Source: Mycobacterium sp.
Lineage (GTDB): Bacteria > Actinomycetota > Actinomycetes > Mycobacteriales > Mycobacteriaceae
Direction of reading: 5' to 3'
DNA: 33,906 nucleotides
Assembly: GCA_025965975.1 (NCBI GenBank)
Contig: JAOPVX010000221.1
Location: 1 to 33,906, forward strand
Part shown: piece after piece, positions 2,557 through 32,326 of the stretch
Numbering within the stretch: the first letter of the stretch is position 1
Layout of the letters: each line of letters opens with the position of its first letter
Notes under the pieces: generated by a model
The model's input: only the letters and a program-made list of their open reading frames with translations
Databases searched by the model: none
Told to the model about the DNA's origin: nothing
Made by a program: the position numbers and the translations under genes

Positions 2557-4290
2557 ATGAAACCTGACTATGACGTTCTGATCATTGGTTCGGGGTTCGG
2601 GGGGAGTGTCACCGCGCTTCGGCTCACCGAGAAGGGCTATCGCGTCGGGGTGCTCGAGGCCGGCCGGCGGTTCAATGACGAAGACTTCGCCAAGACCTCG
2701 TGGAATCTGCGCAAGTTCTTGTGGGCACCGAAGTTCGGCATGTACGGCATTCAGCGGATCCACCTGCTGCGCAACGTGATGATCCTGGCGGGCGCCGGGG
2801 TCGGCGGGGGGTCGCTGAACTACGCCAACACCCTGTATGTGCCGCCGGAACCGTTCTTCGCCGACGGGCAGTGGTCACACATCACCGACTGGCGCGCCGA
2901 GTTGATGCCGCACTACGACCAGGCCCAGCGGATGCTCGGGGTGGTCAAGAACCCGACGTTCACCGACGCTGACCGCATCGTCAAGGAGGTCGCCGACGAG
3001 ATGGGCGTTGGCGACACGTTCGGGCCGACACCGGTCGGGGTGTTCTTCGGACCGGATGGTGAGAAGACGCCGGGCAAGACCGTGCCCGACCCGTACTTCG
3101 GCGGCGCCGGGCCCGCACGCACGGGCTGTATTGAATGTGGCTCATGCATGACGGGCTGCCGCTACGGTGCCAAGAACACATTGCTGAAGAACTACCTCGG
3201 TTTGGCGGAAAAGGCTGGGGCAGAAGTAATTCCGATGACCACAGTGACCGGCTTCGAGCACCGGTCCGACGGGCTGTGGAAGATCCGCACCAGCCGGACC
3301 GGCTTGCTGCCGCGCAAGAGGCGCTCGTACACCGCCTCGCACGTCGTGCTGGCCGCTGGCACGTGGGGGACCCAGAAACTGCTGTTCAAGATGCGTGACA
3401 GGGGGAACCTGCCCAAGCTTTCGGACAAGCTGGGCGTGCTGACCCGAACCAATTCGGAGTCGATCGTCGGTGCTGGCCGCTTCGTGGTGTCCCGCGACCT
3501 CGACCTCACGCACGGCGTCGCGATCACCTCGTCGATCCATCCGAGTTCCGACACGCATGTCGAGCCGGTGCGGTACGGCAAGGGGTCCAATGCGATGGGG
3601 CTGTTGCAGACCCTGATGACCGACGGCGCCGGGCCGCAGGGCACCGACGTTCCGCGGTGGCGGCAGTTCTTCCGCAACGCCGCCGCCGATCCGCGCGCCA
3701 CGCTTCGCATGCTCAACGTCAGGCACTGGAGTGAGCGGACGGTGATCGCGCTGGTGATGCAGCATCTGGACAACTCGATCACGACGTTCACCGAACGCAC
3801 GAAGCTGGGATTCCGTCGGATGACGAGCAAGCAGGGCCACGGCGAGCCGAACCCGACCTGGATTCCGGTGGGCAATGAGGTCACCCGCAGGATCGCCAAG
3901 AAGATCGACGGCGTCGCCGGTGGCACCTGGGGCGAGTTGTTCAACATCCCGCTCACCGCGCACTTCCTCGGCGGGGCGGCGATCGGCGACACCCCGGAGC
4001 ACGGCGTGATCGACCCCTACCAGCGGGTGTACGGATATCCGACGCTCTCGGTGATGGACGGCGCGGCGATCTCGGCGAATCTTGGTGTGAATCCCTCGCT
4101 TTCGATCACCGCGCAGGCCGAGCGGGCAGCGTCGCTATGGCCCAACAAGGGTCAGGTGGACCAGCGCCCGGTGCAGGGCGAGCCGTACAAGCGGCTCGCG
4201 CCGATCCCGCCGGAGCATCCCGTCGTGCCTGCCGATGCACCGGCGGCGCTGCGCCACCTCCCCAGCGAGCCGGTTAGCTCGGCGGGCTGA
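2557..4290 (+). CDS. choD: ChoD, GMC-family putative cholesterol oxidase
   Basis: FAD-dependent GMC oxidoreductase of 577 residues, near-identical in length and sequence to recalled Rv3409c. The N-terminal dinucleotide-binding motif is IIGSGFGGS (residues 9-17), followed by the GMC signature AGAGVGGGSLNYAN around residues 79-91. The C-terminal part has HFLGGAAIGDTPEHGV and the FAD-binding VMDGAAISANLGVNPS segment. A four-cysteine cluster C-x2-C-x2-C-x3-C (Cys191, 194, 197, 201) resembles an iron-sulfur ligand set. Members are annotated as cholesterol oxidase, but ChoD is not established as the main sterol-oxidising enzyme in mycobacteria, so the substrate is uncertain. It lies 63 bp after guaB3 on the same strand, the same neighbourhood as in M. 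tuberculosis. Confidence 0.93.
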   Translation: MKPDYDVLIIGSGFGGSVTALRLTEKGYRVGVLEAGRRFNDEDFAKTSWNLRKFLWAPKFGMYGIQRIHLLRNVMILAGAGVGGGSLNYANTLYVPPEPFFADGQWSHITDWRAELMPHYDQAQRMLGVVKNPTFTDADRIVKEVADEMGVGDTFGPTPVGVFFGPDGEKTPGKTVPDPYFGGAGPARTGCIECGSCMTGCRYGAKNTLLKNYLGLAEKAGAEVIPMTTVTGFEHRSDGLWKIRTSRTGLLPRKRRSYTASHVVLAAGTWGTQKLLFKMRDRGNLPKLSDKLGVLTRTNSESIVGAGRFVVSRDLDLTHGVAITSSIHPSSDTHVEPVRYGKGSNAMGLLQTLMTDGAGPQGTDVPRWRQFFRNAAADPRATLRMLNVRHWSERTVIALVMQHLDNSITTFTERTKLGFRRMTSKQGHGEPNPTWIPVGNEVTRRIAKKIDGVAGGTWGELFNIPLTAHFLGGAAIGDTPEHGVIDPYQRVYGYPTLSVMDGAAISANLGVNPSLSITAQAERAASLWPNKGQVDQRPVQGEPYKRLAPIPPEHPVVPADAPAALRHLPSEPVSSAG

Positions 4291-17348: not shown

Positions 17349-18044
17349 GTGACGTCAGCTATGAGCATGGAACAGCGCCCGATTGACCGCGCTGAGCAGG
17401 TAGAACACCTGCGTCGTAAGATCGCGGCGGTGTCCGGCAAGGTCGGCGGCGGGCGCAGGGGCCCAGCACCGTCGATCGACCCGCTGCCGGACTCGGAATC
17501 TTTGCTGCCGCTGCCCGAATCGCTGGCCGAACTTCTGCCGACGTCGTTGCCGCGCGGGACGGTGGCGGTGCTGTCGGGCGCCCGGTCGCTGCCGCTGAGC
17601 ATGGTGGCGGCGGTGACGGCGGAGGGCGGGCACGCCGCGATCGTCGGCCAGCCCGACGTCGGCTTGCTGGCCGCCGTCGAAATGGGAGCGGATCTGAGCA
17701 GGATCGCGGTCATCCCCGAACCCGGTGCCGATCCGGTCGAGGTGGCCGCCGTGCTGATGGATGGCATGGACCTGGTGGTGCTCGGCCTGGGTGGGCGGTC
17801 GGTGCCTGCCGGCCGGGCGCGGGCGGTGGTGGCCAGGGCTCGGCAGAAGGGCTGCACCCTGCTGGTCACCGGTGGTGACTGGCAAGGGGCGTCCACCCGG
17901 CTGGACGCCAGGGTCTGCGGCTATGAGGTCACCGGTGCGGGGGATGGTGCGCCCACTCCCGGATGCGGGCGGATCGGCCGGGTGCGGTTGGCCATGCGGG
18001 CCCGAGGACGGTCCTTTGGCACCGTTCGTGCGGTAGGCGGATGA
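17349..18044 (+). CDS. imuA': ImuA', mutasome accessory protein
   Basis: A 231-residue RecA-fold-like protein, partner of ImuB and DnaE2 in damage-induced mutagenic translesion synthesis. Recognised by [61 protein letters not shown] and the C-terminal [23 protein letters not shown] 17349 is chosen over upstream GTGs because AGGAGG (17336-17341) is spaced seven bases from it. The LexA box at 17297-17312 indicates SOS control. The stop TGA is directly followed by the GTG of imuB, so the pair is cotranslated. Confidence 0.93.
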
Positions 18045-19778
18045 GTGTCTTCCGGTTCCGCCTCGGGGTCTTCGGCTCTCCCCCTGCCCTTCGGGCGGGA
18101 GGGCCCCCGGCTTGCCAGGGGAGTGCCCGCACGCTCGAGTGGCTCGTCGCGAGTGCTGGCCGTCTGGTGCATGGACTGGCCGGCGGTCGCTGCGACCGCC
18201 GCGGCCGGTCTTCCTTCGACGGCGCCGGTAGCGGTCACGCTGGCCAACAGGGTCATCGCCTGTTCGGCGTCGGCCCGTGCGGCCGGGGTGCGGCGAGGGC
18301 TGCGCCGCCGGGAATCGCAGGCGCGGTGTCCGGAGCTGCATGTTGTCACCGCCGATCCCGCCCGCGATGCCCGCCATTTCGAAGATGTGACGGCCGCGGT
18401 CGACGACTTGGTGCCGCGGACCGAGGTGCTGCGCCCCGGTCTACTGGTGCTGCCGGTGCGCGGCGCGGCCCGCTACTTCGGGTCCGAACAGGCCGCCGCT
18501 GAGCGGCTGGTCGACGCGGTGGCCGCGGCCGGGGCCGAATGCCAGGTCGGCATCGCCGACCAGCTGTCCACCGCCGTCTTCGCCGCCCGGGTGGGACGGA
18601 TCGTCGAGCCCGGCAAGGACGCACTGTTTCTGTCCGCTCTGTCGATCCGCCAACTGGCGACCGAGCCGAGCCTGGCCGCGCCTGGCCGCGAGGATCTAGC
18701 AGACCTATTGTGGCGCATGGGGATCCGCAACATCGGGCAGTTCGCCGCATTGTCCCGCAGCGATGTGGCCTCCCGGTTCGGCGCCGACGCCGTTGCCGCG
18801 CACCGGTTCGCCCGCGGCGAACCCACCCGTGGGCCGTCGGGGCGTGAACCACCGCAGGAACTCGACGCGGTGATGAACTGCGACCCGCCGATCGACCGTG
18901 TCGATGCCGCCGCGTTCGCCGGCCGGTCGCTGGCCAGCATCCTGCACCGCAGCCTCGAGGCCTCGGGAGTCGGATGCACCCGGCTGGCCATCCATGCCGT
19001 CACCGCCAACGGCGAAGAGCTGGAACGGGTTTGGCGTTGCGCCGAACCGCTGACCGAGGACGCCACCGCTGACCGGGTGCGTTGGCAGCTCGACGGCTGG
19101 CTGAACAGGCGCAATCCCAACGACCGGCCGACCGCCCCGGTGACCCTGATCCGACTGCGGCCGGTGGAGATGGTTTCGGCCGAGGCGCTGCAGCTGCCAT
19201 TGTGGGGTGGCATCGGTGAGGAGGACCGGCTGCGGGCCCGCCGCGCGCTGGTACGGGTTCAGGGGCTGCTCGGGCCGGAGGCGGTGCAGGTGCCGGTGCT
19301 CAGCGGCGGCCGGGGGCCTGCCGAACGCATCACGTTCACACCGCTGGGCGACGAGCCGGTGCCGCGGGCCGATCCGGGGCAGCCATGGCCCGGTCAGCTC
19401 CCGGAGCCGTCGCCGACCGTGCTGCTCGACGACCCGGTCGAGTTGCTCGACGCCGACGGCAACCCGGTGCGGGTTACCGGCCGCGGGCTGCTCTCCGCCG
19501 ATCCGTCGCGGCTGGCCGCACCTGGCTCCACCGATCCCCGGGTGGGCCCCCAGCTTGCGAGGGGAGTGCCCCCAGCGCTCCTGCCCGCCGGTGACGGCAG
19601 GGTGTCCTGGTGGGCCGGGCCATGGCCGGTCGACGAGCGGTGGTGGGACCCCGACCAGGCCAAGGCCGGACGCACTGCGCGGGCGCAGGTGCTGCTCGAC
19701 GGTGGCGACGAGCGCTCGCAAGCCTTGCTGCTGTGCTATCGGCAGCGGCGATGGTACGTGGAGGGGATCTACGAGTAG
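18045..19778 (+). CDS. imuB: ImuB, Y-family polymerase-like mutasome hub
   Basis: A 577-residue Y-family-polymerase homologue that, by family knowledge, lacks polymerase catalytic residues and links DnaE2 to the sliding clamp. Conserved sequence starts at RVLAVWCMDWPAVAA (36-50). The little-finger domain is followed by the beta-clamp-binding motif QLPLWG at 383-388 (DNA 19191-19208). It is about 50 residues longer than the M. tuberculosis protein as I recall it. Two extra stretches, GPRLARGVP near residue 20 and GPQLARGVP at 501-509, are encoded by two copies of one GC-rich repeat in the same frame. GTG 18045 adjoins the imuA' stop with AGGCGG upstream; a start at GTG 18153 would exclude the first repeat. 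SOS-regulated with imuA'. Confidence 0.93.
   Translation: MSSGSASGSSALPLPFGREGPRLARGVPARSSGSSRVLAVWCMDWPAVAATAAAGLPSTAPVAVTLANRVIACSASARAAGVRRGLRRRESQARCPELHVVTADPARDARHFEDVTAAVDDLVPRTEVLRPGLLVLPVRGAARYFGSEQAAAERLVDAVAAAGAECQVGIADQLSTAVFAARVGRIVEPGKDALFLSALSIRQLATEPSLAAPGREDLADLLWRMGIRNIGQFAALSRSDVASRFGADAVAAHRFARGEPTRGPSGREPPQELDAVMNCDPPIDRVDAAAFAGRSLASILHRSLEASGVGCTRLAIHAVTANGEELERVWRCAEPLTEDATADRVRWQLDGWLNRRNPNDRPTAPVTLIRLRPVEMVSAEALQLPLWGGIGEEDRLRARRALVRVQGLLGPEAVQVPVLSGGRGPAERITFTPLGDEPVPRADPGQPWPGQLPEPSPTVLLDDPVELLDADGNPVRVTGRGLLSADPSRLAAPGSTDPRVGPQLARGVPPALLPAGDGRVSWWAGPWPVDERWWDPDQAKAGRTARAQVLLDGGDERSQALLLCYRQRRWYVEGIYE
18096..18128. repeat. GC-rich palindromic repeat, copy 1, in the imuB N-terminal leader
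   Basis: A 33-bp element whose core reads GGGCCCCCGGCTTGCCAGGG, continuing to GAGTGCCC. It matches copy 2 (19539-19571) at 30 of 33 positions and is translated in the same frame. A second hairpin (CCTGCCC, loop TTC, GGGCGGG, one wobble pair) lies immediately upstream at about 18083-18099. Confidence 0.75.
19539..19571. repeat. GC-rich palindromic repeat, copy 2, near the imuB 3' end
   Basis: The second copy of the 33-bp element, with core GGGCCCCCAGCTTGCGAGGG and three differences from copy 1. Outer GGGC and GCCC arms and inner CCCC and GGGG arms make an imperfect palindrome. It is read as GPQLARGVP within the ImuB C-terminal region, where I recall no such sequence in M. tuberculosis ImuB. 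Confidence 0.75.
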
Positions 19779-19785
19779 GCAGCTC

Positions 19786-19811
19786 AGTTGTGCACAATCG
19801 AATTGTGCGCT
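19786..19811. promoter_or_regulatory. Candidate OhrR operator
   Basis: A perfect palindrome TTGTGCACAA (19788-19797) is followed by a second half-site AATTGTGC (19801-19808). This AT-rich TTGTGC repeat arrangement resembles known OhrR operators and overlaps the ohrR start region, so autoregulation of ohrR-ohr is likely. Two possible -10 boxes lie in or next to it: CACAAT (19793-19798) and TACAGT (19811-19816). Confidence 0.6.
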
Positions 19812-23847: not shown

Positions 23848-23940
23848 GGTCACCCCTCGTCAGGCAAAGGTCAAGCTGGGCCCCGCGCTTGCGTCGGGAG
23901 GTGTGACGCGGTCGGTCACGTGCCGGTCAGGCGCGACAGA

Positions 23941-31122: not shown

Positions 31123-31764
31123 ATGACCTTGAATCTGTCCGTCGATGACGTCCTGACCACCACCCGCTCGGTGCGCAAGCGGCTGGATCTGGACAAGCCG
31201 GTGCCGCGTGAGGTGCTGCTGGAATGTCTCGAGTTGGCGCTCCAGGCGCCGACGGGCTCCAACGCCCAGGGTTGGCAATGGGTGTTGGTCGAAGACGCCG
31301 AGAAGAGGAAGGCGCTGGCCGACATCTACCGCACCAATGCGACACCGTATCTCGAACTGCCCAAGCCCGAGTACGGGGATGCGCGCGACGAGCAGCGGCC
31401 CCGGGTGTACGACTCCGCGAAATATCTCAACGAGCACCTTCACGAAGTCCCCGTGATGTTGATTCCTTGCCTTGAGGGACGTCCGGACGGCGCGCCCGCC
31501 CCAATGAGTGCGTCATTCTGGGGATCGCTCCTGCCTGCGGTGTGGAGTTTCATGCTGGCCCTGCGGTCCCGCGGGCTTGGATCGGCGTGGACAACACTGC
31601 ATCTGCTCGGCGACGGCGAGAAGCAGGCCGCTGAGCTGCTCGGCATCCCGCACGACAAGTACAGCCAGGGCGGGCTTTTCCCGATCGCCTACACCAAGGG
31701 CACCGAGTTCCAGCCTGCCAAGCGGCTGCCCGCCGAGCAGGTCGCACACTGGAACAGCTGGTGA
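31123..31764 (+). CDS. Nitroreductase family protein (Rv3368c-like)
   Basis: A 213-residue FMN-dependent nitroreductase-fold protein. The N-terminal TTTRSVRKRLDLDKPVPREVL carries the Arg-Ser-x-Arg FMN phosphate ligands, ALQAPTGSNAQGWQWV the second FMN segment, and LALRSRGLGSAWTT with LGIPHDKYSQGGLFPIAYTKG the C-terminal FMN-binding part. It matches recalled Rv3368c along its length. ATG 31123 is six bases after TAGTCT, so probably leaderless. The physiological electron acceptor is unknown. Its stop codon lies inside the first tandem repeat unit at 31760-31855. Confidence 0.93.
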   Translation: MTLNLSVDDVLTTTRSVRKRLDLDKPVPREVLLECLELALQAPTGSNAQGWQWVLVEDAEKRKALADIYRTNATPYLELPKPEYGDARDEQRPRVYDSAKYLNEHLHEVPVMLIPCLEGRPDGAPAPMSASFWGSLLPAVWSFMLALRSRGLGSAWTTLHLLGDGEKQAAELLGIPHDKYSQGGLFPIAYTKGTEFQPAKRLPAEQVAHWNSW

Positions 31765-31855
31765 TTCTCTTCGCGCAAGCGCTCATCGGAAGGTGATTCT
31801 CTTCGCGCAAGCGCTCATCGGAAGGTGATTCTCTTCGCGCAAGCGCTCATCGGAA
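31760..31855. repeat. Three tandem copies of a 32-bp unit between convergent genes
   Basis: Units at 31760-31791, 31792-31823 and 31824-31855 are identical; a fourth begins with GGTGA and breaks off. The core is CTCTTCGCGCAAGCGCTCAT. On the minus strand each unit holds an ATG that opens MSACAKRITFR and closes with a TGA overlapping the next ATG, so two complete mini-ORFs are chained head to tail. The array fills the space between the nitroreductase stop and the spoU stop. There are no spacers, so it is not CRISPR. A relative with inverse orientation is at 1319-1350. Confidence 0.9.
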
Positions 31856-31861
31856 GGTGAG

Positions 31862-32326
31862 TCACACGGCGCCGGTGAAGTCGTGCTGGCGCCATGCCTC
31901 ATAGACGGCGATGGTCGCGGCGTTGGACAGGTTCAGAGACCGCCGGCCCGCCAACATCGGAATGCGCACCTGCGCACTGATGTGCGGGTCGGCGAGTGTC
32001 GCTGCATCGAGGCCGGTGGGCTCCGGACCGAACATCAACACGTCACCCGGCCGGTAGCTGATATCGGCAAACGACGTCGTGGCATGCGTGGTGAACGCGT
32101 AGACCCGCGTTGGCGCCAGGGCCTCCCAGGCGGCGGGCAGGTCGCGGTGGACGCTGACCGACGCCAGGTCGTGGTAGTCCAGGCCTGCGCGGCGCAATTT
32201 GGGTTCGGACAGGTCGAATCCCAGCGGCTCGACCAGATGCAATTCGCATCCGGTCGCGGCGACCAGCCGGATCGCATTGCCGGTGTTGGGCGCGATGCGC
32301 GGCGAGTAGAACATCAGCCGAAACAT
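31862..32326 (-). CDS. spoU: SpoU/TrmL-type tRNA 2'-O-methyltransferase
   Basis: A 154-residue SPOUT-class RNA methyltransferase of the TrmL type, which uses S-adenosylmethionine to methylate a ribose in tRNA, classically nucleotide 34. The three motifs are present: NTGNAIRLVAATGCELHLVEP, VLMFGPEPTGLDAA, and IPMLAGRRSLNLSNAATIAVYEAWRQ, which form the knot that binds the cofactor. ATG 32326 (FRLMFYSPRIAPNTGNA) agrees with the recalled Rv3366 start; GTG 32341 would add five residues. No strong ribosome-binding site is seen for either. The tandem repeat array lies immediately 3' to the gene. Actual target tRNA is inferred from the family. Confidence 0.93.
   Translation of the reverse strand: MFRLMFYSPRIAPNTGNAIRLVAATGCELHLVEPLGFDLSEPKLRRAGLDYHDLASVSVHRDLPAAWEALAPTRVYAFTTHATTSFADISYRPGDVLMFGPEPTGLDAATLADPHISAQVRIPMLAGRRSLNLSNAATIAVYEAWRQHDFTGAV

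Follow-up and report, generated by a model that had tools for sequence, protein, structure and literature searches.

In-frame palindromic elements are chiefly known from the Rickettsiales, whose genomes typically decay and are under weak selection. Short hairpin modules that occur singly or in tandem make up the REP and BIME repeats, REPs being by name extragenic. The Rickettsia palindromic elements (RPEs) and the WPEs of Wolbachia are described as small dispersed palindromes that lie between genes as well as in frame within conserved protein genes, where a peptide is added and the gene is left unbroken (PMC2229807, PMC3767692, PMC10969869). One report presents MIRUs as small mycobacterial repeats that insert at start codons with little harm and whose own open reading frame is coupled to the next gene (PMC12548453). 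ERIC, YPAL/RU-2, RU-3, and Correia elements, bacterial repeats that have open frames joined to other ORFs, are described as MITEs of about 100-200 bp that are mainly intergenic (PMC2229807), and Myt-1 and Myt-8 were reported to be stem-loop families, i.e., structured short repeats of M. tuberculosis (PMC2267715).

We analyzed a stretch of 33,906 nucleotides from Mycobacterium sp. (hereafter, the window), in which the imuB gene (18045-19778; 577 aa), identified by ORF translation, Pfam, and 80 related loci, carries two inserts; the gene and both inserts, with their parts, lie on the plus strand. The Pfam search placed the IMS domain (PF00817) of this ImuB at residues 56-179 (E 1.4e-13). The initial annotation had pointed to a pair of 33-bp repeats in this gene, at 18096-18128 and 19539-19571, and realignment and translation confirmed that the two are identical at 30/33 positions and encode GPxLARGVP peptides in the imuB frame, namely GPRLARGVP (copy 1) and GPQLARGVP (copy 2); the aligner lengthened the match to 36 nt (89%). 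The additional hairpin claimed upstream of copy 1 was also located, as CCCCCTGCCCTTCGGGCGGG immediately 5' of the copy. The 33-bp unit itself is a real repeat but proved to be merely one portion of a larger modular element. Insert 1, which was delimited by DNA and protein alignment, comprises 84 nt or 28 codons (18066-18149), follows imuB codon 7, and is a long form of subtype B; it contains the hairpin CCCCCTG-CCC-TTC-GGG-CGGG (18080-18099) and a 21-bp module GGGCCCCCGGCTTGCCAGGGG (18101-18121) followed by AGTGCCCGCA. Insert 2, delimited in the same way with boundaries uncertain by a few bases, comprises 63 nt or 21 codons (19526-19588) close to the ImuB C-terminus and is a long form of subtype A lacking the left hairpin; its module GGGCCCCCAGCTTGCGAGGGG (19544-19564) leads to the right end AGTGCCCCCAGCGCTCCTGCCCGCCGG. 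Both modules were placed by the module pattern and the copy alignment. Both inserts are missing in Mycobacterium sp. OAS707 and ACS1612, whose imuB loci are 89% identical to the window in the best segment. Because the two imuB copies belong to different subtypes, with different ends and with no left hairpin in copy 2, they do not represent a simple local duplication. We consider it very probable (roughly 0.85) that the imuB repeats are two members of a modular palindromic element family dispersed in mycobacteria. When the window's ImuB was modelled with AlphaFold2, the model was weak (mean pLDDT 53.7), with both inserts in coil of pLDDT <50, inside low-confidence segments at residues 1-34 and 485-517. 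We regard the element as selfish or nearly neutral and not as a functional part of ImuB.

The draft genome to which the window belongs comprises 7.44 Mb in 449 contigs (93.4% complete, 4.6% estimated contamination). A 61-base query including copy 1 produced 23 matches in this genome, the best of which, apart from the query itself, had an E value of 1e-14. With up to three mismatches allowed, the hairpin pattern matched 28 times versus 0 for the reversed control, and the module pattern matched 39 times versus 7 in the control, with 24/39 at two mismatches or fewer. Inside the window, the module pattern occurred three times versus 0.09 expected, and 0/100 shuffles reached three. The third of these occurrences, at 23878-23898 on the plus strand, between oppositely oriented genes, has two mismatches and may be a degenerate module; as a weak relative of the element, it is plausible. 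The existence of further genomic copies was borne out by a tabulated set of 34 pattern-defined copies, consisting of the 28 hairpin matches and 6 module-only matches with at most one mismatch. Matches of the module pattern at two to three mismatches, such as C162, C301, C310, C47:108765, C105:24944, C411, and that at 23878, were left out of this set, and C162, C301, and C310 among them look like real elements.

Alignment of the copies gave a layout of a 20-nt hairpin, an optional 21-bp module that can be tandem, a conserved GGTGCCCCC, and variable ends. On the plus strand, the left segment is about TCCCCGGTCGT in subtype A and about GTCGGYTCT in subtype B, and the GC-rich hairpin reads CCCCCTGCCC-TTC-GGGCGGG, with a TTC loop, followed by a variable base and GG. 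The hairpin leads directly to TGCCCCCA (TGCCCCC) in the short form, and the long form has the 21-bp module GGGCCCCC(A/C)GCTTGCG(A/T)GGGG and then AGTGCCCCCA. At least two kinds of right end were seen, AGCGCTCCTGCCCGCCGGA in subtype A and CACGC..GCTCGTC in subtype B, and many copies are truncated or worn. Two modules stand in tandem in C363, and an array in C426 is translated as THASGGP repeats. Insert lengths measured for 9/34 copies were 84, 63, 45, 51, 51, 30, 111, 30, and 21 nt, all multiples of three. When one short and one long copy were translated, none of the six frames had a stop codon of its own. The sense strand bears GGGAGGTG, which resembles a ribosome-binding site with a GTG after it.

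Judged against the RPE and WPE accounts, the mycobacterial element is likewise dispersed, both between genes and in frame within genes, but it differs in that its hosts are not Rickettsiales and that its inserts range from 21 to 111 nt as measured (one tandem array is longer) versus about 100-150 bp. It differs as well in being GC-rich, in using at least five frames, in being concentrated at protein ends, and in having a 21-bp tandem module. With Myt-1 and Myt-8, compared by description, it shares the character of structured short repeats in a mycobacterium. The family appears to behave like RPEs and is set beside RPEs and MIRUs by description, not by descent. In the best reading, it is a mycobacterial analogue of the Rickettsia palindromic elements that persists at sites where a short Gly/Pro-rich peptide is the outcome.

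The element is found beyond the window's genome. The hairpin 20-mer, with at most one mismatch, was present in 36/396 genomes of the genus, including that of the window, which had the highest count (16), and the controls gave 0; at two mismatches or fewer, it was present in 21/40 named genomes from the ImuB-locus set of 80, with three single control matches in three other genomes. A covariance model built from 16 short copies of the window's genome detected, at E <=0.01, 22 copies in that genome and 1 to 9 in each of 14 relatives (15/15 genomes), the relatives having been hand-picked, 13 of them for pattern matches, with <=150 candidates scored per genome. When 121 genomes sampled from the family were searched with stricter filters and few candidates scored, matches (E <=1e-4) were obtained in 3 genomes, all of the window's genus, i.e., in 1/31 genera. 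In relatives, the element lies inside open frames of an ECH-family protein, a GT87 protein (L207, and similarly L208), a glutamate-synthase-like protein, a UvrD-like helicase, an MMPL protein, and a short-chain dehydrogenase, and the Pfam GT87 and MMPL domains extend across the insert. In the open-licence PMC literature, we found no report of this family or of any mycobacterial in-frame palindromic family, and no occurrence of three element core strings.

Concerning how such copies spread, mobilization in trans by a transposase (a RAYT or some other), as for a MITE or REP-like element, would be compatible with the main reading, and we place this possibility somewhat below even odds. Like REP and BIME, the element has short hairpin modules, single or tandem. 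Its size, palindrome, and dispersion are in keeping with this explanation, and the genome contains three matches to PF01797 (Y1_Tnp). However, none of the three, one of which is a short fragment, is flanked by element cores: no Y1_Tnp gene has an element core within 1.5 kb on either side, bar one chance 7-mer, and no RAYT linkage was found. The ORF after one of these matches is, we presume, TnpB-like. Inspection of the copy and locus alignments by eye revealed no clear terminal inverted repeat or target duplication, one short copy had no match in plasmid and phage collections, and we found no transposase or donor for the element. In comparison with ERIC, YPAL/RU-2, RU-3, and Correia repeats as described above, the mycobacterial element differs in that most tabulated copies are genic, as well as in the lack of a terminal inverted repeat recognisable by eye.

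The contexts of the 34 copies were derived from codon scores and translations, the decisive evidence being alignment with OAS707 and ACS1612 (three composite protein queries) together with translations of host starts and ends, and the tally labels were entered by hand from the alignments. The codon score was rejected as a context call when used alone: it placed many copies "between co-directional genes," and comparison with relatives showed several of these to be fused to gene ends. We found 25 copies in frame in protein genes, 1 that breaks the frame, 2 at stop/start junctions, and 6 between genes, of which that in C238 was compared with relatives and the other five were judged from context calls. 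In-frame fusion is therefore the commonest state (25/34), in agreement with the initial annotation, which had proposed a palindromic element colonising coding genes in frame. A near-start position, roughly within the first 16 codons, is occupied by 11 of the 25 fused copies, in ImuB, an acyl-CoA synthetase, transglutaminase-like, monooxygenase-like, and MurG-like proteins, an Mg-chelatase-like ATPase, a membrane protein, an NDH-like protein, a metallo-hydrolase, an uncharacterised protein, and a GDSL-like protein. Six lie near the end (the C345 protein, AroK-, FolP-, PgsA-, and CarA-like proteins, and a lipoprotein), and eight are internal (ImuB site 2, pirin, acyl-CoA dehydrogenase, prolyl oligopeptidase, a thioesterase, ADH, and the C236 and C47 proteins). 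Pfam supported the hosts with pirin, acyl-CoA dehydrogenase, S9 peptidase, ADH, 4HBT_3, Pyr_redox_2, AAA, AMP-binding, transglutaminase, Glyco_transf_28, shikimate kinase, pterin-binding, glutamine amidotransferase, FAD-binding, and Lactamase_B domains; pieces of the PgsA-, GDSL-, and C236-type host proteins had no match in the Pfam search, and these identities, as well as the finer host gene names, are our assumption by recognition. In pirin, POP, and 4HBT_3, the domain continues from one side of the insert to the other. When the starts and ends of the hosts were translated, their start and stop codons proved to be kept with a peptide added, and the host proteins probably carry the element as an extra peptide.

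An orthologue was compared for 24/25 fused copies, and the flanks were orthologous in relatives at those 24. Sites empty in OAS707/ACS1612 include those of pirin, acyl-CoA dehydrogenase, prolyl oligopeptidase, thioesterase, and the NDH-like, Mg-chelatase-like, FolP-, AroK-, PgsA-, MurG-like, transglutaminase, GDSL-like, and lipoprotein genes, among others. Within the limits of sequence comparison, the copies are shown to have arisen by insertion, mostly into protein genes and in frame. The ADH of C134 has no close orthologue in OAS707/ACS1612, and its fusion rests on Pfam; the copy at C47:172202 lies within a variable proline-rich stretch; and in CarA, an element piece replaces the end and the spacer, the ends differing by more than a clean insert. 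The sole in-gene copy that breaks its host frame (by comparison with OAS707) is a 31-nt insert at C270:2599-2629 (L026), in a gene that we take to be SRPBCC-like, and is either a real disruption or a sequencing error. The frame was kept in 25/26 in-gene copies (p 2e-11 versus one third), and 17/25 fused copies lie near a protein end (p 2e-8 versus a rough null of one sixth). The shared reading frame noted for the two ImuB copies is true of that pair but is no general rule, as it is one of five frames in use (antisense, 11, 6, and 3 copies; sense, 3 and 2), with 20/25 fused copies antisense to the host gene (p 0.004).

The covariation of the hairpin was evaluated in 83 matches from 88 sources (82 distinct rows) in 15 genomes, 60/66 model-found places in relatives having been retrieved. 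In this alignment, which was fitted to the structure and in which related copies were counted more than once, there were 30 double-changed stem cells versus 5.9+-1.9 in shuffles and <=8 in slid-partner controls, and the stem covariation score was 0.148 versus 0.050. The upper-stem changes were G-C to A-U and C-G to G-C. Pairs changed on both sides (3 versus 2.2 in shuffles; 177/500 reach it) and further pair types (9 versus 7.4; 60/500 reach it) were not clearly above the shuffles, and the 16 short copies of the window's genome alone had no covariation. Folding energy was rejected as a sign of structure, being ordinary for composition (z -1.73 to +0.36 versus shuffles). Rfam covariance models had a sole sub-threshold match in window positions 17900-19800, at 18181-18221, outside both copies.

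Such covariation is what would be expected of a functional operon element, in which the hairpin would influence translation, stability, or coupling from within mRNA, close to starts and stops, selection would place it there in a MIRU-like niche, and the peptide fusion would be a by-product. An orientation bias is also seen in copies codon-scored between co-directional genes, with the same tendency as in the fused copies (34/38 overall; 8/9 in the window's genome and 26/29 in relatives), and two copies, C342:16609 and C342:27205, lie precisely at the junction of a stop codon and the following start. Nevertheless, we regard this explanation as distinctly unlikely: 8/25 fusions are internal, 6/34 copies are module-only, folding energies are ordinary, and OAS707 seems to have lost the MurG hairpin with the gene still open. 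The niche near starts is shared with MIRUs, which were compared by description, not by sequence; the mycobacterial element, unlike MIRUs, which keep their own ORF, usually leaves the host start in place and is fused into the protein, and the junction location typical of MIRUs applies to 2/34 copies.

To return to the RPE-like reading, insertion would be random or weakly targeted and then filtered by selection, which may retain copies just past a start codon, just before a stop, or in tolerant loops. A copy with no stop of its own in six frames (as in the two copies checked) and a length divisible by three would add a Gly/Pro/Arg-rich peptide with no truncation, and gain or repetition of the 21-bp module, equal to 7 codons, would leave the frame unchanged. 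The antisense bias may stem from selection against the ribosome-binding-like sequence within mRNA. A bolder proposal, which we hold tentatively and consider doubtful, is that being translated is itself the way of life of this mobile palindromic element. On this view, it would favor insertion sites immediately inside translation starts and stops, frequently those with RTGA start/stop overlaps, would remain open whichever frame is read, and would spread through the essential genes of free-living actinobacteria by a transposition route yet to be described, altering many proteins at once in the form of N- and C-terminal tags. A family of large-genome mycobacteria whose tabulated copies are mostly genic, with normally indispensable genes included, would show that the colonisation of proteins needs no reduced endosymbiont genome. 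The element may also cause mycobacterial gene starts and ends to be misannotated.

ImuB was compared across 80 related loci chosen from 444 candidates, and each of the two insert sites was empty in 79/79 readable orthologues, site 1 being unreadable in L106 (truncated) and site 2 in L061. Neither of the two outcomes that the initial annotation had named as refuting, a lack of further genomic copies or the conservation of both peptides in distant ImuB, was observed. That the repeats are normal ImuB sequence, or arose by local duplication inside imuB and look repetitive by chance, would agree with both stretches being in frame in an intact imuB and with site 2 being a loop of variable length, which in M. 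komossense (L072) is longer and of a sequence different from the insert; this is nonetheless very improbable, given that the inserts are missing in all readable orthologues, that dozens of copies lie elsewhere, and that the ends of the imuB copies differ. An assembly or contamination artefact, for which a draft in 449 contigs with 4.6% contamination might speak, is barely credible, since flanks differ among copies and are orthologous in relatives at 24/25 fused sites, one copy is shared with OAS707, and the same family occurs in other independent assemblies. In a DNA search of the 80 loci, M. tusciae (L046) and a MAG (L039) proved to have a related hairpin (two differences) at a third place in ImuB, where an in-frame stretch RDVGPRPKGRGRSREEQTI lies in the last loop at about 3990-4050 and is absent from the other rows shown, and imuB seems to have been struck at three places in separate lineages. 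Weak hairpin or module matches at four mismatches in the ImuB loci L044, L062, L087, and L101 were taken as chance.

The shared copy, at C341:39598, is common to the window's genome and OAS707 and absent in ACS1612. MurG in OAS707 contains an element relic without the hairpin, and the acyl-CoA synthetase of OAS707 contains a probable relic; the frames of all three genes are open in OAS707, and both relic sites are empty in ACS1612. The copy, relic, and empty states across the three genomes suggest that insertion occurred along the lineage and that decay is possible with the gene staying open; old copies may generally decay or drop the hairpin in this way. These natural insertions, whether empty, filled, or decayed, provide material for asking which short peptides protein ends tolerate.

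Several minor observations were made in these alignments. At C162:3555-3600 (L120), the GTG start of an OppA-like lipoprotein may come from a module copy, relatives using their own ATG, and at C301:4636-4665 (L121), in a gene presumed to be LigD-like, a 21-nt in-frame insert resembles a decayed module and is absent in both relatives. In ACS1612 (L150), short tandem repeats directly precede the orthologue of the C286 host gene, at the position that the element occupies in the window's genome. With one difference allowed, the motif GA(T/C)GAGCGCTTGCG stands alone at window position 1322 (1317-1342) and also forms the outer end of several relatives' elements (L225, L230, L234, L243, L206, and L209), and is possibly another mini-repeat, one that joins with the hairpin. 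Elsewhere in the window, at 31760-31872, three 32-bp units (GGTGATTCTCTTCGCGCAAGCGCTCATCGGAA) are arranged in tandem, and their reverse strand translates as CCGATGAGCGCTTGCGCGAAG.
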